Shown here in pieces: positions 55,103 through 63,720 of a stretch of DNA of 64,000 nt (position 1 is its first letter; each line of letters begins with the position of its first letter). Origin of the DNA: Oscillospiraceae bacterium (GTDB lineage Bacteria; Bacillota; Clostridia; Oscillospirales; Acutalibacteraceae). Where the stretch lies: positions 42,057 to 106,056 of the forward strand of contig CADAER010000002.1 of the NCBI GenBank assembly GCA_902787025.1, read 5' to 3'. A program made the translations under genes and the position numbers. The notes beneath the pieces are model-generated. The model ran no database searches. It was not told the DNA's origin and worked only from the letters and a program-made list of their open reading frames with translations.

Positions 55103-55867
55103 TTATCTGAGAAAGCCCGTGAGCGGGTCCGAAGCGCTGCCGCCTCTCGCGAGCACTCTGCCCATACCCGTTATGTATGCCGCGCGTCCCGCCTCAATAG
55201 CCTTGCGGAAAGCGCCCGCCATCGCGGGAACATCGCCCGCCGTCGCTATCGCCGTGTTTGCCATAACGGCGGCCGCGCCCATCTCCATTGCCTCGCAGGC
55301 CTGCGAGGGTCTGCCTATGCCCGCGTCAACAATAACCGGCAGGTCGATTTCGTCAATTAAAATCTGTATGAAATCTCTCGTGGCAAGCCCCTTGTTGCTG
55401 CCTATCGGAGCCGCAAGCGGCATAACCGCCGCCGCGCCCGCGCTCTGCAAATCCCTCGCGATGTTTAAATCGGGATACATATAAGGCAGAACAACAAAGC
55501 CTTCGTCCGCGAGAATTTTTGTCGCTTTGACCGTCTCGTAATTGTCGGGCAGAAGATATTTCGCGTCGTGCATAATCTCGATTTTCACGAAATCCCCGCA
55601 GCCCATCGCCCTGCTTAAACGCGCGATTCTCACTGCCTCGTCGGCGTTTCTCGCCCCCGATGTGTTCGGCAGAAGGGTCACGCCCTCGGGAATGTGGTCG
55701 AGTATGCTCTCGCTCTGCTGAGTGTTCGCCCTGCGCAGAGCCAGCGTGATAATCTGCGCTCCGCCCTGCTCGACGGCAGCCTTTATAAGATTGATATTAT
55801 ACTTGCCCGAGCCTAATATGAAGCGGCTTGTAAATTCGTGACCGCCTAAAATAAGTTTGTCGTCCAT
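55103..55867 (-). CDS. thiG: Thiazole synthase ThiG
   Basis: 254 residues. Motifs [24 protein letters not shown] with the Schiff-base Lys, [12 protein letters not shown] and [10 protein letters not shown] mark ThiG. It builds thiazole phosphate from deoxyxylulose phosphate, dehydroglycine and ThiS thiocarboxylate. Lies 15 bases downstream of thiF. Confidence 0.96.
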
Positions 55868-55882
55868 AGTGTTTCTCCGCTT

Positions 55883-56500
55883 TTATTTTAATATTAACTG
55901 AATAACCTTGTTCGCCTGATGCCCCGCGCATACAGCGACTCTCGGAGCCATAAGCCCCGTGCCCGAGCCGACATCCGTCGTGAGGTCCCCGCAGACGAAA
56001 AGCCTTCCGTTGACCCTGTTCGTCCTTATTTCATCCGCGTCGCCGTAGCCCGCCATACCGTTGCCCGAAACAACAACCGCTTCTGTCTGTGTAAGCAGTT
56101 CCCGCACGAGCATCGCCTTCCTGTCGGGCCTGTCAAACGCCTCGCATACAATGCCGTATTCCCCGAAAAGCCGGGAAACATTCCCGGGCGTCACCTCGAC
56201 ACATTCCGTTTTTATGTCGAGATACGGGTTTATATCGGCAAGTATCATCTTAATCGCGTCGGTCTTGTCCATACCGAGATGCGGGATTGTATAAGCCTGA
56301 CGGTTCAGATTCGTTGTGTCAACCTTATCGAAATCGACTAAAAAAAGATGTCCAACGCCCGAGCGCGCGAGCATGACGGCTATGTTTGAGCCGAGCCCTC
56401 CGAGACCTGCCACCGCCACACGCGCAGCCTGCAGTTTCTCTTTTATTTCGGGCGAAAACCGCGCGTCAAAGGCTCTGTCGAGTTCTTCCTTCGCTATCAT
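55883..56500 (-). CDS. thiF: Sulfur carrier protein ThiS adenylyltransferase ThiF
   Basis: 205 residues, the shorter family-2 ThiF. Nucleotide site AGLGGLGSNIAV, DFDKVDTTNLNRQ and the GNGMAGYG loop match the E1-like fold. It adenylates the C-terminal glycine of ThiS. ATG at 56500 overlaps the thiS stop, with GGAGG inside the end of thiS; a TTG at 56518 is less likely. Confidence 0.93.
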   Translation of the reverse strand: MIAKEELDRAFDARFSPEIKEKLQAARVAVAGLGGLGSNIAVMLARSGVGHLFLVDFDKVDTTNLNRQAYTIPHLGMDKTDAIKMILADINPYLDIKTECVEVTPGNVSRLFGEYGIVCEAFDRPDRKAMLVRELLTQTEAVVVSGNGMAGYGDADEIRTNRVNGRLFVCGDLTTDVGSGTGLMAPRVAVCAGHQANKVIQLILK

Positions 56501-56501
56501 A

Positions 56502-56696
56502 TCAGCCGCCTCCGACAAAGTTCAGAATCTCAACGCTGTCGCCGTCCTCAAGCACCGTTTCGCCCAGCTCTTCCTTCTTTAAAATTACAAGGTTGCGCTC
56601 GACCACAACACGCTCGGCGTTGTAGCCCGCTTCGGCTATATACTGCGCGACGGTTTTTCCCGCGGCGTTTACGCTTTCTCCGTTTATTGTTACCAT
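56502..56696 (-). CDS. thiS: Sulfur carrier protein ThiS
   Basis: 64 residues. Ubiquitin-like, begins MVTINGESV and ends NFVGGG, the required Gly-Gly tail. First gene of thiSFGHE. AGGAGA precedes the ATG and lies right after the T-tract of the riboswitch terminator, so control acts on the leader. Confidence 0.95.
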   Translation of the reverse strand: MVTINGESVNAAGKTVAQYIAEAGYNAERVVVERNLVILKKEELGETVLEDGDSVEILNFVGGG

Positions 56697-56706
56697 GGCT
56701 TCTCCT

Positions 56707-56740
56707 GAAAAAAACAGACACACCCGCAGGGTATGCCTGT
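56707..56740 (-). terminator. Terminator of the TPP riboswitch
   Basis: Minus strand ACAGGCATACCC-tgc-GGGTGTGTCTGT, a 12-bp stem with two G-U pairs, followed by seven T residues and then the thiS ribosome site. Confidence 0.88.
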
Positions 56741-56744
56741 ATTG

Positions 56745-56840
56745 CACAAATATCCCTACGTTGGCATTACCCAAATCAGGTTTCGGTTCGAGACAGCTTC
56801 AGTCTCCTCTCAGCCGACTGCCGTCAGCTCACCGTTTGCT
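56745..56840 (-). ncRNA. TPP riboswitch
   Basis: The minus strand carries the conserved thi-box cores: CGGCTGAGAGG near the 5' side and AACCTGATTTGGGTAATGCCAACGTAGGGA in two adjacent parts near the 3' side. A terminator follows. TPP binding should stop transcription of thiSFGHE and probably the GDPD and corA genes behind it. Confidence 0.94.
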
Positions 56841-56861
56841 GTTTAGTTTTTATTACATTAT

Positions 56862-56889
56862 ATTATATGCGATTGAAACGGTATGTCAA
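56862..56889 (-). promoter_or_regulatory. Promoter of the thi operon
   Basis: Minus strand TTGACA (56889-56884), 16-base spacer, TATAAT (56867-56862). It begins two bases after the larE stop codon. Confidence 0.85.
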
Positions 56890-56890
56890 G

Positions 56891-57685
56891 TTATATTTTA
56901 TTCATACTGCCCGTTTTATATCCGCCCAAATCAAGCGACACAAAGTCGAAGCCGAGCGATTCAAGAAAACCTCCGGCCTCGTCCGCAATCCCCGCGAGTT
57001 TCTGTATATCGTCCTTCTCCGTCTCAATCCTCGCCAGATTGCCGTGAACCCTCACGCGCACCTGCCAAAAGCCCTTTGAGTGCAGAAAATCCTCCGCCTT
57101 TTCAATCATCGCGAGTTTTTCCTTTGTGATTTCCTCACCGCAGGCAATACGCGTGGCAAGGCAGGCAAACGACGGCTTTCCGCTTGTGGGCAGCTTCATT
57201 TCCTCCGACAGCGCGCGGATTTCCGCCTTCGTAAGTCCCGACTCAAGCAGCGGGCTTAAAACGCCGAGTTCCTTCACCGCTCTCATCCCGGGACGGTAAT
57301 CGCTGACATCGTCCGCGTTCGAGCCTTCCGCGACATTTTCTATGCCTCTTTGCGCCGCCGCGTTTTTTATCCGCGTGAAAATACTTTTCTTGCAGATATA
57401 GCACCTGTCGGGCGGGTTCGCGGAAAAGCCTTCTATTTCAAGCTCGTCCGCTTCAATCACTATCTGCTCTATGCCCTCTTTTTCGCAGAAGCCGACCGAG
57501 CCTTCAAACTCTTTTCCGGGAAACAAGTCCGAGTTCACCGTCACCGCGACCGCCTTTTCGCCGAGAACGTTTTGCGCGGTTTTGAGCAGAAAGGTCGAAT
57601 CCACTCCGAACGAGAACGCGACCGCCACGCTGCCCAGAGAGCGCAGATAATCTTCAAGCGCCCGTTTCTTTTCGTTTATATTCAT
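56891..57685 (-). CDS. larE: Pyridinium-3,5-biscarboxylic acid sulfur transferase LarE
   Basis: 264 residues. PP-loop SFGVDSTFLL binds ATP. CYICKKS and FACLATRI follow; the Cys in ACLATR probably matches the sacrificial Cys that gives its sulfur to the nickel-pincer precursor. Last gene of larB-larC-larE; overlaps larC by 4 bases. Sequence order B-C-E is the usual set. Confidence 0.94.
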   Translation of the reverse strand: MNINEKKRALEDYLRSLGSVAVAFSFGVDSTFLLKTAQNVLGEKAVAVTVNSDLFPGKEFEGSVGFCEKEGIEQIVIEADELEIEGFSANPPDRCYICKKSIFTRIKNAAAQRGIENVAEGSNADDVSDYRPGMRAVKELGVLSPLLESGLTKAEIRALSEEMKLPTSGKPSFACLATRIACGEEITKEKLAMIEKAEDFLHSKGFWQVRVRVHGNLARIETEKDDIQKLAGIADEAGGFLESLGFDFVSLDLGGYKTGSMNKI

Positions 57686-58878
57686 AAGCTTTTGTTTATC
57701 TCTTCAATAACCTGAGTGATGCTCATATCCTTTTCTTCCGCGATTTTCGCCAGGTCGTCATACTCAAACTTCGATTTTTCACAGCCGTAGCCCGAGGATG
57801 TCTTTATCCCCACCTCGCCCAGCGGAGTGTTCACAATCCTCTCCTCACGCTCGAGAGTATATCTTTTCATAACACTTTCGCGCACGCCGAGCGTCGATGT
57901 GTGCTTGAAGATTAATTTCAGAATTCCGTCTTTATCGGCGTTTTTGCACAGAACGTTAAGCACTGTGCCCTGTCTTCCCTTTTTCATAACCGCGGGAACG
58001 CACCAAACATCGAGAGCGCCGTTTTTCATCAGCTGCCCGCAGGCGAAAGCGATTGCCTCCGCGCTCATATCGTCAAGGTTGCAGGCAAGCTCCGTGACCG
58101 TGTCTCCTTCTCCGCTCTCACCGAGCAGCGCTCGCACGCAGTTCGCCCTTTCAAAATCCTTCTTCCCCATGCCGTAACCCGTCTTTTCGGTTTTCATAAG
58201 CGGCATATCGCAAAATTCCTTAACGAAATATTTAAGCAGAGCCGCCCCCGTCGGTGTGCAAAGCTCGCCGTCCGTCCCGTCCGAGTAAGCGGGAATTCCC
58301 TTTAACAATTCCGCTGTTGCGGGCGCGGGAACGGGAAGCACTCCGTGAGCGCATTTCACCGAGCCGCTGCCCGTGTTGACGGGCGTCGCGTAAACCTCCG
58401 CTCCGAGGTCGTTTACCAGCATGCAGACCGCGGCGACATCCGCGACCGCGTCGAGCGAGCCGACCTCGTGAAAGTGTATTTCATCCACCGTTTTTCCGTG
58501 AACCCTGCTCTCCGCCTCTGCTATGCTCTCATAGACGGCAAGAGCGTCCGCCTTGACCTTCTCGGGAGCGTTCAGATCTTCAATTATATGCGAAATCCCG
58601 TGCAGGGTGCTGTGTTCGTGGTGGTGATGCTCATGGTGATGATGTTCGTGTTCGTGATGATGCTCCTCACCCTCTTCGGCGCCGTGAACCTTAACCGAAA
58701 TATGCGTTCCCGTAATACCGCATTTTTCAGTCTTTTCCCTGACATATTCAACTCCCGGTATTCCGAGGGAATTGAGCCTGTCCGTATATTCTTCGGGGCT
58801 GTCCGTCAGTTCAAGAAGAGCCGCCGTGAGCATATCGCCCGCCGCCCCCATCGAACAGTCAAGAAAGATTTTTCTCAT
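57682..58878 (-). CDS. larC: Nickel insertion enzyme LarC of the nickel-pincer cofactor
   Basis: 398 residues in one frame. In several Lactobacillales larC is split by a programmed frameshift into two parts; here it is a single gene. A His-rich metal run (HHHEHEHHHHEHHHHEH type) lies at about 70-92. N-terminal LDCSMGAAGDM and central EIHFHEVGSLDAVADV are typical. CTP-dependent cyclometallase that inserts nickel. Overlaps larB and larE by 4 bases on each side. Confidence 0.95.
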   Translation of the reverse strand: MRKIFLDCSMGAAGDMLTAALLELTDSPEEYTDRLNSLGIPGVEYVREKTEKCGITGTHISVKVHGAEEGEEHHHEHEHHHHEHHHHEHSTLHGISHIIEDLNAPEKVKADALAVYESIAEAESRVHGKTVDEIHFHEVGSLDAVADVAAVCMLVNDLGAEVYATPVNTGSGSVKCAHGVLPVPAPATAELLKGIPAYSDGTDGELCTPTGAALLKYFVKEFCDMPLMKTEKTGYGMGKKDFERANCVRALLGESGEGDTVTELACNLDDMSAEAIAFACGQLMKNGALDVWCVPAVMKKGRQGTVLNVLCKNADKDGILKLIFKHTSTLGVRESVMKRYTLEREERIVNTPLGEVGIKTSSGYGCEKSKFEYDDLAKIAEEKDMSITQVIEEINKSL

Positions 58879-59630
58879 TTTTTCGCCTCCGGATGGTTTA
58901 TCATACTCGCGAGATAGCCCGCGCCGAAACCGTTGTCAATGTTTACGACCGAGACCCCGCTCGCGCAGGAGTTAAGCATTGAGAGAAGCGCCGTGATTCC
59001 TTCGAAAGCCGCTCCGTAGCCGACGCTTGTCGGAACCGCAATTACGGGGCAGTCCGCGAGACCGCCGATAACGCTCGCGAGAGCGCCTTCCATGCCCGCT
59101 ATCGCTATAATCACGCTCGCGGACATTATTTCCTTCGCGTGAGAGAGCAGCCTGTGAAGCCCCGACACGCCCACGTCATAAAGCCGCACAACCTTGTTGC
59201 CCAGCGCCTGAGCGGTAACGGCAGCCTCCTCCGCCACGGGAATGTCGCTTGTGCCGCCCGTCGCTACGACGATGTTTCCCGTGCCGTCGGGCCCGGGCAT
59301 TCCGCCGCAAAGAGCGATTCTCGCTTCGGGGTAATATTCAATATTCTCTTCTTTTTTTATTTCCTCCGCCTTTTCGGAAGAAAGCCTCGTTATCAGTATT
59401 CTCTCCTGACCGTCAGCCTTCAATGACCGAATAACAGAGCAAATCTGCGCGGGAGTTTTACCCTCGCCGTAGATTACCTCCGTCACGCCCTGTCGCAGGT
59501 TGCGGTGCAGGTCAACCTTCGCGAAGCCGAGGTCCTCGAAAGGCTCCGTCTTGAGTTTCAGCAGAGCGTCGTCAACGCTCATCGAGCCGTCGGCGACCGC
59601 TTTCAATATCTGTTTTGCCTGAGAGTTCAT
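58875..59630 (-). CDS. larB: Pyridinium-3,5-biscarboxylic acid synthase LarB
   Basis: 251 residues. The C-terminal half resembles the AIR carboxylase PurE (VVATGGTSDIPVAEEA, IAIAGMEGALASVIGGL, AVPTSVGYGA). It carboxylates and hydrolyses nicotinic acid adenine dinucleotide to start the cofactor; NaAD is the product of NadD, which is also in the window. No promoter fits between the hairpin at 59651-59684 and its ATG, so expression depends on read-through from the two small membrane genes. Confidence 0.94.
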   Translation of the reverse strand: MNSQAKQILKAVADGSMSVDDALLKLKTEPFEDLGFAKVDLHRNLRQGVTEVIYGEGKTPAQICSVIRSLKADGQERILITRLSSEKAEEIKKEENIEYYPEARIALCGGMPGPDGTGNIVVATGGTSDIPVAEEAAVTAQALGNKVVRLYDVGVSGLHRLLSHAKEIMSASVIIAIAGMEGALASVIGGLADCPVIAVPTSVGYGAAFEGITALLSMLNSCASGVSVVNIDNGFGAGYLASMINHPEAKK

Positions 59631-59690: not shown

Positions 59691-59891
59691 TTAATTCTTT
59701 TTTCTTATAACGGGAGTGAAATACCCGCTTTTGAGTTCCATATACTCAACAAAAGCGTCAACAAACCACATAATCGAAGCGCCCCAATACATAAGGGCAA
59801 GGATCCCGGGCTTCATTTCGCTTTTTCCGTTTGTCTTGTACCATACAATCGTCGCAATGCACGCGGCGAAAACAGTAATCAGCAGCGTCAT
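59691..59891 (-). CDS. Small membrane protein (partner of 59888-60298)
   Basis: 66 residues. Two predicted TM helices: residues 1-17 and about 30-48 (ILALMYWGASIMWFVDAFVEYM). Overlaps the upstream gene by 4 bases (ATGA), so translated in step with it. No family I can name. It is followed by a hairpin and then larB. The tight coupling implies the two proteins work together in the membrane. Confidence 0.72.
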   Translation of the reverse strand: MTLLITVFAACIATIVWYKTNGKSEMKPGILALMYWGASIMWFVDAFVEYMELKSGYFTPVIRKKN

Positions 59892-60298
59892 ACGTTTTCC
59901 TCAACCGTCTTTGCGGCCGACTTGCTTTCAAGCACGCCCGATATAACGACCATCCCCACCCACACAAGGGTTACAAGCACAGCCATCGCGACGCCCGAGG
60001 TTCCCATCTCGTGCAGCATTTCCGCTTTCGAGGCGGGATCAGCCGCCGCGGTCAGGAAGGGCGGGAAGGGAACTACCTCGCCGTGCCAGATATGTTCAAA
60101 CGCGAGCAGGGCTACGCCTCCCCAGAGAAGGGAGCAGAGCCAGCCGAGTTTTTTTGAAAAAGGAGTTTTCTTTTCGGTCTGAGCCGCATTGCCGTTTCCG
60201 AGCGAGGGAGCCGCAAGCTTTTTCTCGTGATGTTTAACAGCGACAAGAACAGCGGTCGCGACAATCGCTTCGGTGCCGGGAACTACAAAACATGCCAT
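59888..60298 (-). CDS. Membrane protein of unknown function, first gene before larBCE
   Basis: 136 residues with three predicted TM segments (about 3-21, 50-68 and 103-125). Starts MACFVVPGTEAIVATA; has a basic loop and the phrase FEHIWHGEVVPFPPF. I recall similar short proteins in Clostridia, without known function. It has its own promoter (60338-60366) and AGGAGG before the ATG. Paired with the 66-residue gene. A role with nickel or with the enzyme that uses the nickel-pincer cofactor is an inference from position only. Confidence 0.72.
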   Translation of the reverse strand: MACFVVPGTEAIVATAVLVAVKHHEKKLAAPSLGNGNAAQTEKKTPFSKKLGWLCSLLWGGVALLAFEHIWHGEVVPFPPFLTAAADPASKAEMLHEMGTSGVAMAVLVTLVWVGMVVISGVLESKSAAKTVEENV

Positions 60299-60337: not shown

Positions 60338-60366
60338 AATATAACATCTTAAAAAAAGGATGTCAA
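60338..60366 (-). promoter_or_regulatory. Promoter of the membrane pair and lar genes
   Basis: Minus strand TTGACA (60366-60361), 17-base spacer, TATATT (60343-60338), between the ACP stop and the first membrane gene. Confidence 0.75.
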
Positions 60367-60385: not shown

Positions 60386-60625
60386 TTACGCCTGCTTTTT
60401 CGCCGCCGCCTGCTCAATGTAGTCGGCAACCTCGCCGAGAGTGTAGAACGAAGCCATTTTGCGGTCGCTGACGCTGACGCCCGTTTCATCCTCTATCGCT
60501 ACCGCAAGATTTATGATGTCAAGCGAGTTGAGACCGAAATCACTGCGGAGATTCGCTTCGGGAGTGATAATTTCGGGGTCGATATCAACGTATTCAAGAA
60601 TAAGAGCCTTCAGAGTATCGAACAT
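60386..60625 (-). CDS. Acyl/peptidyl carrier protein, stand-alone
   Basis: 79 residues. The phosphopantetheine site is Ser in DFGLNSLDIINL (near residue 35). Four-helix carrier length. Its partners are the condensation-domain gene (22 bases upstream) and the adenylation gene, so it is probably a dedicated carrier for that set and not the fatty-acid AcpP. Loads an acyl or aminoacyl group as a thioester. Confidence 0.92.
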   Translation of the reverse strand: MFDTLKALILEYVDIDPEIITPEANLRSDFGLNSLDIINLAVAIEDETGVSVSDRKMASFYTLGEVADYIEQAAAKKQA

Positions 60626-60647
60626 TTTTCTCTTCCTTTCCTGTCTT

Positions 60648-62030
60648 TCAGTCTATATTGTCAAGAATTTCCTTAAGCGTCATATCGGGATTCGCACAGC
60701 CCATTACGAGAGCCTTGACCGTGTTGTCGTGAAGGCGGTCAATGTCGGCTGTCGAAATCTGATTTGTCCTGTGCAGGTAGGCAAAACGCAGGCCGCCCGT
60801 TACGGAATCCTTCATCGTGTATGTGTAAAGCGGCATAACGTATCTGCCGAGACTGTAGCTGTGGAATTCGTATTCCCAGCCGTTCATCGTGTCGTCCTCA
60901 AGCGGGAACCACGAGAACATCATCGTCGATGTGCCGTCAACCATACTGTAATTGAAAAGTTCTCTCTCGTTTTCAAGCCAGGTGATGAACGGATAGTTGT
61001 TGTGGCGCATAATCTCCGCCTGAAGGCCTCTCAGCTTCTCAACCGCCTCGTTGAAGGTCAGTTCTTCGGGAAGAATTATTCTCCACGGAAGCGCGGATGC
61101 CATTGTGCCGCCGCAGCGCTTGTCGTTTACCGTCTTACGTCTGTTTGAAAGCACAAGGAAATGCGTGTCGTCGTGACGGTGGTTGATTTTGCTTACGTGC
61201 AGCCTCATACCGAGCTGAATAACACACTCGCCGCTTAAACGGTTCTGCTCCATGTAGTTGAGAATAACCCTGCTGTCCTCAACCGAAAGAGGTCTGCGCG
61301 CGAGTTCCGCTCTGTCGTGAATCGGGTCAAAGCTTCCGCAGGCGCGAAGCTCGGGGTTCTTCTTTTTGATTCTCGCCCTGTCAAGCGGTCCCGAACCCAT
61401 AACGCCGTTCCAGATGGGCTCGCCGTCTTTTTTGAAGTAGTTTACAAAGAAATCCTTGTCCGCCTTAAGCTTTTCCGCGTTATGCTTGTATTCGATTTCC
61501 TTCCTGAGCGTCTCTTTGTAACTGCCGAGAGGTCTGGGCATCTCCCCGCCCGATTCAAGCGCCTCGTAAACGGCGAGAAGGTCCGCAAAGAAGATGAAAA
61601 CCGCGGGAGCGTCCATCGCGAGGTGGATTACATTTATGTAAATACCGTTTCTTCCGTCGGGAGTGTTGAAGAAATAAATGCGGTATGTCTCACCCTTGAA
61701 ACAGCGTATCGGCTTCTGCGCGTCTGCGGTAAGAAAATCGTCCTGCTCCTTCTGCGTCTTGAAAGTATATACGGGGATTTTGCCGATTTCCGCCTTTTCC
61801 TCAAAATACTGTCTGAAACCGCCCTTTTTCTCAAAGCGGAGTCTCATACAGTCGTTGCGCTGCGCTTCGATTTCAAGCGCCTTCTGCATTATATCGAAGT
61901 CAATCTTTCTCTTTAAAACGATGGAGGAGGGAATCTGAATAACCTGCTTGTGGAAAAACGAATATTTAAGCATGAAGTTAATCATTTCCTGCGCAGGTGA
62001 AAATTCGAAATATTCTCTGTTATTGCTCAT
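60648..62030 (-). CDS. Stand-alone condensation-domain (C-domain-like) acyltransferase
   Basis: 460 residues. Fold of NRPS condensation domains and related acyltransferases. The HHxxxDG motif is present as IHLAMDA: the second, catalytic His136 and Asp140 are kept, while the first His and the Gly are replaced. Later C-domain features such as the LSNRRKTVNDKRCGG segment and MMFSWFPLEDD are seen. It would join a carrier-bound acyl group to an amine or hydroxyl. Overlaps the adenylation gene by 4 bases (ATGA). The acceptor is not known. Confidence 0.82.
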   Translation of the reverse strand: MSNNREYFEFSPAQEMINFMLKYSFFHKQVIQIPSSIVLKRKIDFDIMQKALEIEAQRNDCMRLRFEKKGGFRQYFEEKAEIGKIPVYTFKTQKEQDDFLTADAQKPIRCFKGETYRIYFFNTPDGRNGIYINVIHLAMDAPAVFIFFADLLAVYEALESGGEMPRPLGSYKETLRKEIEYKHNAEKLKADKDFFVNYFKKDGEPIWNGVMGSGPLDRARIKKKNPELRACGSFDPIHDRAELARRPLSVEDSRVILNYMEQNRLSGECVIQLGMRLHVSKINHRHDDTHFLVLSNRRKTVNDKRCGGTMASALPWRIILPEELTFNEAVEKLRGLQAEIMRHNNYPFITWLENERELFNYSMVDGTSTMMFSWFPLEDDTMNGWEYEFHSYSLGRYVMPLYTYTMKDSVTGGLRFAYLHRTNQISTADIDRLHDNTVKALVMGCANPDMTLKEILDNID

Positions 62031-63586
62031 ATTTCCGCCTTCTTTCTCAATAATTTTCCGGTGCTCGTCCTCGGCAGCGGCTCGCTGACCACGTTAACCT
62101 GCGTGATGACGTGCGAGGGCTTCGCGCCTTCGTTCATCTGCTTTACAATCGCGGTGATGACGCCCTTCGGGTCGTCAATGTCGTTGTCGGAACAGTAGCC
62201 GAAATTGGGATATATGTCAGCCGTAATTCTGTCATTTTCGGAATAAACGAGAATTTCCGAAACAATGTCGTAATCGGCGAATTTTTTCTCAATGGCCTCG
62301 GGCGAAACATTTTCGCCGTTCGAGAGGATGATAAGATTTTTAAGTCTGCCCGTGATGAAAAGCTCTCCGCTCTCGGAGATTTCACCTATGTCGCCCGTCC
62401 TCAGCCAGCCGTCCTCGGTGAAAGCCGCCTTCGTCTCCTCGGGCATTTTGTAGTAGCCCATCATAAGCGTGGGGCCTTTTACCTGAATTTCGCCGCCCTG
62501 AATACGGGTGACGAACATGTTCGTTACTCTGCCGACGGATTCAAGCGGACACTCCGCGTCGGGAACGGAGATTCTGCAGCCCGCCTCCGTCATACCGTAG
62601 CCCTGGCGCAGAAAGATACCGAAACGCTCATACTCCGTTACAAGGAAGGGGTCGAGGTAGGCGGCGCCCGAAATGAGCCATCTGATATTCTTTCCGAAAA
62701 CATCTTCCGCCGCGTGACGGGGATCGCGTTCGGGGTGGCGGTTCTCCTTCATTTTGACAAGCTTGAGAAGAGTCTGCGCTATCATCGGAACAACGCGCAT
62801 AACCGTAGGCTCGAATGTCCTGAGGCTTTCGGTCAGGTCGCGCATGCTGCCGTTGAGGCAGACCGTCAGACCGTCCTTCAAATTTCTCACATAGTCGCCC
62901 GAGAGGCAGTATGCGTGAAACATAGGCAGAACCGAAAGCACAACCGCGTTCTCGTTCAATATATCAACATACTCGTCATACATCACGTTGCCGACAAAGG
63001 CGTTCATCGAAAGCATAACGCCCTTCCTCGTGCCCGTCGTGCCGGATGTGTAGATGATAACCGCGCACTCGTTGACATCAACCTTATAGGATGAAAGCGG
63101 AGCGTAAACGGACGAATCGGAATATTTTTCAACAATGCCGTCGAGCACGCCCTCTTCCGTGATGTTGAGCGGGGGAATAATCGAGCTGAAATGTCTTTTT
63201 AATTTATCGGTGCAGTTGTAGGCGCCGTCATAAAAGAGGATGTCTATATCCGCGCGCTTGAAAAGCGAGTCGGATTCCTTTTCGGAAATTTCGGGTGAAA
63301 ACGGAACAAGAATGTTTCCGCTCGTGAGAATACCCGTGACGAAGACTATGTATTCGTAACTCGTTCTCGCGGCAACGGCAATGTGCATCTTTTCCCTGCC
63401 GAGATTTCTCAGGAAACGGCAGACCGCGAGACTGTCGCTGCGAAGGCGGTTGAAGCTTCTCTCCTCAACCTCGCCGTCTTTTATGAACTTTATGAAAGTG
63501 CGGTCGCCGAACTTCGCTGCGGAGTTGTCGAGTATTTCCCGTATTGACGGAGCCCTGTAATCGACCGCGTTACCGTAGTTAACCAT
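62027..63586 (-). CDS. AMP-binding acyl/aminoacyl ligase (adenylation enzyme)
   Basis: 519 residues. ANL superfamily motifs: IIYTSGTTGTRKGVMLS (P-loop), GYGMTEAGCRIS, DGWLRTGDIGEI and the C-terminal catalytic Lys in PRTSTGKLLRK. Activates a carboxylic acid as the adenylate and loads it on CoA or, here, more likely on the adjacent ACP. Reads more like the acyl-CoA synthetase branch than an NRPS A-domain, so the substrate may be a fatty acid. First gene of the three; ATG with AAGGGA upstream and promoter at 63653-63682. Confidence 0.9.
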   Translation of the reverse strand: MVNYGNAVDYRAPSIREILDNSAAKFGDRTFIKFIKDGEVEERSFNRLRSDSLAVCRFLRNLGREKMHIAVAARTSYEYIVFVTGILTSGNILVPFSPEISEKESDSLFKRADIDILFYDGAYNCTDKLKRHFSSIIPPLNITEEGVLDGIVEKYSDSSVYAPLSSYKVDVNECAVIIYTSGTTGTRKGVMLSMNAFVGNVMYDEYVDILNENAVVLSVLPMFHAYCLSGDYVRNLKDGLTVCLNGSMRDLTESLRTFEPTVMRVVPMIAQTLLKLVKMKENRHPERDPRHAAEDVFGKNIRWLISGAAYLDPFLVTEYERFGIFLRQGYGMTEAGCRISVPDAECPLESVGRVTNMFVTRIQGGEIQVKGPTLMMGYYKMPEETKAAFTEDGWLRTGDIGEISESGELFITGRLKNLIILSNGENVSPEAIEKKFADYDIVSEILVYSENDRITADIYPNFGYCSDNDIDDPKGVITAIVKQMNEGAKPSHVITQVNVVSEPLPRTSTGKLLRKKAEI

Positions 63587-63720
63587 CAGAAAAATCCCTT
63601 TATAAACTAAATAAATATAAATATAATTACTATAAAGCGTTTAACCTGCAACATTATATAACAGGCTGTAACAATTTGTCATTATTTTTGTTATTTTCTT
63701 AATATTTTATTAATTATTCC
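63587..63720 (-). promoter_or_regulatory. Leader and promoter of the A-C-ACP operon
   Basis: Minus strand ATGACA (63682-63677), 18-base spacer, TATAAT (63658-63653), followed by a ~65-base AT-rich leader to the ATG at 63586. Confidence 0.55.

Follow-up and report, generated by a model that had tools for sequence, protein, structure and literature searches.

The closest described relative of the locus reported here is a pathway of Coprococcus eutactus, in which OaaA, OaaACP and OaaC were reconstituted and yield fatty acid amides such as oleoyl aminovaleric acid (PMC13142362). According to the available parts of that report, the known family excludes both proteogenic and nonproteogenic amino acids as substrates and uses aminovaleric acid and GABA, and OaaC is an autoinhibited homodimer that is opened by holo-ACP. 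The same text describes a helix-bearing insertion in OaaC (Gln214-His224) and gives the family motif as (D/H)HxxxD with Ser (42%), Ala (36%) or Gly (17%) as the next residue; it does not call the first position conserved. A three-gene set has separately been named the CTA operon (PMC13060934, in the parts available). At 70% identity it was found in 36 species, all of them Lachnospiraceae, and in each case the carrier gene stood between those for C and A. That study ties it to the making of N-acyl amines and, in Blautia, to eased fatty acid toxicity. Chang et al. 2021 (Nat Microbiol 6:792) is cited in both reports and receives one sentence in the available text of the review PMC9886687. Starter condensation domains are a further point of comparison; they are embedded in nonribosomal peptide synthetases (NRPSs) and take a carrier-bound amino acid as acceptor (PMC13142362).

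We analyzed a 64,000-nucleotide stretch of DNA from an Oscillospiraceae bacterium, referred to below, at its full length, as the window. A first-pass annotation of this DNA had proposed that a ligase, a condensation protein and a carrier protein encoded there constitute an unrecognised pathway. That proposal is refuted, as the trio corresponds to the OaaA/OaaACP/OaaC pathway and to the three-gene set called the CTA operon, as far as these are described in the available parts of PMC13142362 and PMC13060934. We regard it as highly likely that the trio is a fatty acid amide (N-acyl amine) operon, and the comparisons below suggest that it represents a deep, divergent branch of the known pathway type.

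The A-C-ACP locus and its surroundings

The open reading frames listed for the window place the trio on the minus strand in the order A-C-ACP (AMP-ligase, free-standing condensation protein, carrier protein), with the following features.

62027-63586, minus strand (63586 to 62027): A, a 519-residue acyl ligase of the ANL family, whose proposed role is to adenylate a fatty acid and charge ACP with it
60648-62030, minus strand (62030 to 60648): C, a 460-residue free-standing condensation protein, proposed to be an acyl-ACP:amine N-acyltransferase
60386-60625, minus strand (60625 to 60386): ACP, a 79-residue acyl carrier protein
61608-61628, minus strand: active-site motif IHLAMDA, C residues 135-141, with His136 and Asp140 kept in all 76 C proteins compared
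63653-63682, minus strand: promoter-like site ATGACA-18-TATAAT upstream of A, a consensus match only (11/12)
60338-60366, minus strand: promoter-like site between ACP and the next gene, a consensus match only (11/12)

The gene positions and the close packing given in the first-pass annotation were exact; A and C overlap by 4 bases and 22 bases separate C from ACP. The promoter-like site at 63682-63653 ends 66 bases before A. The stretch contains nine promoter-like sites where 3.4 would be expected, and some of the nine fall within genes; transcription of the trio from one promoter is plausible. The window stops at the contig end, and sequence upstream of A is limited to 414 bases in the source genome. 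Antisense to A lies an open frame of 327 codons (window 62111-63094, plus strand).

Two small unannotated membrane-like proteins of 136 and 66 residues are encoded after ACP (window 59691-60298, minus strand). A Pfam search of both returned no family over its cut-off, and the 66-residue protein lacks, in frame, 34 residues that are present in its 100-residue homologue at locus L031. The promoter-like site at 60366-60338 suggests that these genes form a separate unit. Their inclusion in the operon was considered and rejected on the basis of this site and of their neighbourhood in 29 same-genus loci (L031-L059, some cut by contig ends), where homologues adjoin the trio only in L031 and L032, the two closest relatives. 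Further downstream (window 55103-59630, minus strand) are putative larB, larC and larE genes for the nickel-pincer cofactor and thiS, thiF and thiG genes for thiamine, all named from their translations. In L037, homologues of the three putative lar genes lie next to the trio as well, there on its upstream side and divergent.

The three proteins and the proposed reaction

Pfam matches and sequence confirm the AMP-ligase, condensation and carrier domains and the IHxxxDA motif named in the first-pass annotation. The ligase carries an AMP-binding domain (PF00501, E 6e-49) and a C-terminal domain (PF23562, E 9e-6), together with the strings YTSGTTG, YGMTE, TGD, GRLKN and TGKLLRKK, which we take to be the usual ANL motifs. 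ACP matches PP-binding (PF00550, E 2.5e-14) and contains the carrier serine within FGLNSLD, presumably the usual carrier motif. The top NCBIfam model for A is PRK06187, a long-chain fatty acid-CoA ligase subfamily, at 203 bits against a cut-off of 476, and all 25 of the 102 NCBIfam matches that were listed fall under their cut-offs. When A was compared by sequence to solved chains, the top two were fatty acyl-CoA synthetases, followed by 4-coumarate-CoA ligases. The structural model of A (pLDDT 86.8) best matches 4-coumarate-CoA ligase and luciferase, with the fatty acyl-CoA synthetase 3R44 at rank 8; it predicts an ANL fold and gives no hint at the acid, fatty acid ligases not being singled out.

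A ligase and a carrier protein are also used in D-alanylation (Dlt), and the trio could on that ground be assigned to Dlt or a similar cell-wall modification. A condensation protein is not known to be part of Dlt, however, and neither DltB nor DltD was recognised among the open reading frames beside the trio. The sole DltD match in the source genome, which is 88% complete, lies elsewhere and is sub-threshold (17.4 versus 22.7 bits). In addition, A resembles fatty acyl and aryl CoA ligases by sequence, and the 25 NCBIfam matches listed out of 102 include no DltA model. These results leave the Dlt assignment a negligible probability.

Sequence comparison links the condensation protein (PF00668, E 3e-24) to the fatty acid amide family. 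Among the sequences of all solved chains its best match is 12KH (465 residues), at E 1.6e-38 with residues 5-457 aligned on 5-463; the next condensation protein follows at E 4e-5 and the stand-alone amide synthase 1L5A at E 0.71. The data section of PMC13142362, in its available form, identifies 12KH as OaaC. Identity between C and OaaC is 24% over 464 residues, and it ranges from 22 to 28% across the OaaC-type proteins compared. The OaaC insertion Gln214-His224 aligns gap-free with the window C, whose model shows a helix at 214-222. The window motif agrees with the family pattern at H136, D140 and A141, and its first residue, Ile, falls outside (D/H). In a tree, 47 stand-alone C proteins lie on one side and 10 C domains of multi-domain NRPSs on the other, separated by a branch with support 100. 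C thus sides with OaaC and not with NRPS-embedded domains, on both the E values and this tree; the 10 NRPS domains in the tree include none assigned to the starter type, which is the neighbouring clade in the published work.

The model of C (pLDDT 92.2) gives as its best fold matches the first condensation domain of CDA synthetase, LgrA and the RzmA starter domain; 12KH is absent from the best 50 matches in a structure library ending 8 April 2026. Starter condensation domains share with C their fold and an acyl donor (for RzmA according to the titles of its structure entries, for CDA synthetase C1 presumably), and their place among the matches would fit a trio that serves as the loading module of a lipopeptide NRPS encoded elsewhere. 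Such a system would contain further condensation and carrier modules. The source genome holds one condensation protein, both condensation matches falling in the C gene, along with two PP-binding proteins including ACP and ten AMP-binding matches including A. By these counts from an assembly 88% complete, the trio has its own carrier and no NRPS was found for it to feed, which makes a loading module very improbable.

The fatty acid amide reading predicts the following reaction. A would activate a free fatty acid with ATP and load it onto the phosphopantetheine arm of ACP; C would then dock the acyl-ACP and move the acyl chain onto a small free amine, releasing an N-acyl amine. With a free amine as acceptor, a second carrier protein and a thioesterase would both be unnecessary. 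We infer this reaction and its free-amine acceptor from the characterised relatives. The source genome has one match to an ACPS-type phosphopantetheinyl transferase, which could arm ACP. Fatty acid synthesis was considered and set aside. The first-pass annotation had proposed a minimal N-acyl or ester-forming pathway that is neither fatty acid synthesis nor Dlt; a minimal carrier-dependent N-acylation is supported, the best solved relative of C being OaaC, and this part of the proposed chemistry is probably right. Its suggested acyl-amino acid product needs narrowing. If the selectivity known from the family (PMC13142362, available parts) holds here, such a product would be limited to, for example, an acyl aminovalerate or acyl GABA.

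Distribution and branches of the operon

The co-occurrence of the three genes, proposed as a check in the first-pass annotation, was borne out. C was found in 29 of 60 genomes, namely the source genome and 28 of 36 others of its genus, and in none of 23 genomes from other families of the order; in three of the 28 the sole copy is a distant one (29-32% identical). Scanning named species genomes, many of them in common with this set, gave 58 loci. The order is A-C-ACP in 51 of these (48 plain, three with a further ligase after the trio), and the other seven comprise three cut by contig ends, three with C alone and one with A, C and a ligase without a recognised ACP between. Among 391 class genomes, 19 besides the source genome have a stand-alone C at E 8e-87 or better (two cut by contig ends). 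A further 28 have weaker matches alone (E 6e-32 or worse), in frames of 840-2505 residues except for two below 500. At the 19 stand-alone loci, which are more distant, the order is C-ACP-A in 18, with one cut. The arrangement is conserved far beyond chance. Of the record titles for the 58 loci, those that mention a host give goat, sheep, roe deer, water deer, reindeer, horse, water buffalo or dairy cattle, and the remaining titles mention none.

A second, distant ligase follows the trio in L040 (7776-9434), L042 (7573-9225), L043 (7502-9169) and L116 (6645-8270), and is 28-30% identical to A in the first three. In L043 it stands directly after C, with no recognised ACP.

Compared with the OAA pathway, the window trio shares three free-standing, co-encoded proteins of the same kinds, full-length homology of C, the second His and the Asp of the motif, and the insertion helix. 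It differs in the 24% identity of C, in its Ile-His...Asp-Ala against the Asp-His...Asp-Ser of OaaC, and in the bacteria concerned. Gene order also differs if the nearest relatives of OaaC serve as a proxy for the OAA cluster: L164, L160, L159 and L166, 52-56% identical to OaaC, are all C-ACP-A, in contrast to A-C-ACP in the window. With the CTA operon of Blautia, Coprococcus catus and other Lachnospiraceae the window trio shares its make-up of a ligase, a carrier and an acyltransferase in one operon, the known members using a fatty acid and an amine. The window carrier is last, however, and identities lie far below the 70% of the definition (at most 28% for C and 38% for A against the 13 C-ACP-A loci compared). 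The window trio was therefore not classed as a CTA operon in the published sense.

Three groups were distinguished: W, the C clade of the window; D, a second A-C-ACP group (L056-L059 and L097-L117); and T, the C-ACP-A set. Median identities from 19 W, 11 D and 13 T operons are 45.4% (W-D), 36.1% (W-T) and 37.2% (D-T) for A, and 26.3%, 25.0% and 30.4%, respectively, for C. The A tree joins W with D at support 100. The C tree rooted on the 10 NRPS domains places W outside D and T (support 93) on a branch of 1.35 changes per column, and forcing W and D together is rejected (p 0.008). This outer position may be an artefact of the long W and outgroup branches meeting. Under either reading of the tree, C of W changed or was replaced out of step with A. 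Gene order and tree disagree in places, as with the long-branched T row L162, which stands beside D in the C tree.

The motif was surveyed in 76 distinct C proteins (35 W, 21 D and 20 T including OaaC). Among W sequences the first residue is His in 18, each with Asn last, and another residue in 17, each with Ala last. D sequences start with His (11) or Gln (10) and end in Ala (13) or Gly (8), and T sequences start with Asp in 16 and end in Ser (13) or Ala (7).

Because C is only 24% identical to OaaC and W has so long a branch (1.35), the acceptor may differ from that of the known family. One explanation keeps the donor half of the reaction and changes the acceptor: C would form an ester or a modified lipid by passing the acyl chain to an alcohol, to a lipid head group, to an amino acid or to some other acceptor. 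Agreeing with it are the identities above, in which W is closer to D than to T in A yet hardly so in C, and the C proteins of D and T are closer to each other, as if C had changed or been replaced out of proportion to A; the Ile at motif position 1 points the same way. Against it, the catalytic His and Asp are invariant in the survey, the predicted fold of C resembles amide-forming condensation domains, and its best solved relative is OaaC. We consider this explanation unlikely and continue to favour amide formation. A literature search, in the portions of the sources available, returned no biochemistry for the W branch.

Separate histories of A/ACP and C

Within 19 W operons, C of the window groups with those of L031-L038 at 77-93% identity. 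The other two genes divide these loci: relative to the window, L031-L033 are 73-92% identical in A and 72-91% in ACP, and L034-L038 are 52-55% and 35-45%. Imposing the C clade on the A alignment lowers the log-likelihood by 191 (p 1e-120), and imposing the A clade on the C alignment lowers it by 61 (p 1.5e-4); both are rejected, each tested clade having been named from the tree of the other gene. With 18 rows, the ACP alignment fits the topology of A better than that of C by 50 log units (p 6e-5).

A tree of RpoB and GyrB from the 17 genomes in common, of which two are filled to less than half, stands at a tree distance of 14 from A and 24 from C. Fitted to the marker data, the A topology loses 75 log units and the C topology 844 relative to the marker tree. 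The AU test rejects both (A, p 0.003; C, p 1e-11) and the SH test does not reject A; by the AU result A is not perfectly vertical either. These alignments indicate that, within the genus of the window, A and ACP share one history nearer the species tree and that C, whose gene lies between theirs, has a different one.

G006, G034 and G032, the three genomes with a lone C, carry a ligase of this family on another contig; it is 49-50% identical to the L047 ligase, and a recognised ACP adjoins it in two of these genomes. G014 carries such an A-ACP pair, and the search of 60 genomes gave no C in it. At L046, L048 and L051, C has no adjoining A or ACP, and A, or A plus ACP, lies elsewhere in the genome. 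A gene of 413-442 residues follows C there on the same strand; we take it to resemble an NAD-dependent oxidoreductase.

We favour the reading that C was exchanged between species long ago; an old duplication with uneven loss of copies would be the alternative. Synonymous differences (pS) between L034-L038 and the window are 0.62-0.74 for C and 0.68-0.81 for A, a comparison that does not separate exchange of C from stronger constraint on C. Both values are near saturation, so that any exchange of C would be old and cannot be dated.

A broader proposal, which we put forward tentatively and as less probable than not, is that the amide-forming half has been swapped. A and ACP would be inherited as an acyl-loading pair, with C exchanged between species and standing alone on another contig in one branch. 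On this view C of W would serve as an acceptor module, using an amine or other acceptor of its own and yielding new acyl conjugates per lineage in the herbivore gut. If C does exchange under a fixed A-ACP pair, these operons would be a natural experiment in the compatibility of carrier and condensation proteins, a practical obstacle in NRPS engineering.

Our literature search, which covered few subscription papers and judged those listed by title and opening of the abstract, found no paper on fatty acid amide clusters from rumen or herbivores besides the structure preprint; we do not claim that the A-C-ACP order is unpublished. Host receptors, GPR119 among them, are reported targets of fatty acid amides from gut Clostridia, and detoxification of free fatty acids has been proposed in Blautia (PMC13142362 and PMC13060934, available parts). 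Candidate roles for the pathway are fatty acid detoxification, as proposed for Blautia, host signalling, or both. Human gut bacteria are already known to have this type of pathway, and the window trio is very probably a remote, rearranged branch of it, seen in bacteria from the guts of herbivorous mammals. A widespread, divergent branch from sheep, goats, deer, horses and water buffalo would extend the published range, which is Lachnospiraceae in PMC13060934, and points to unexplored products.
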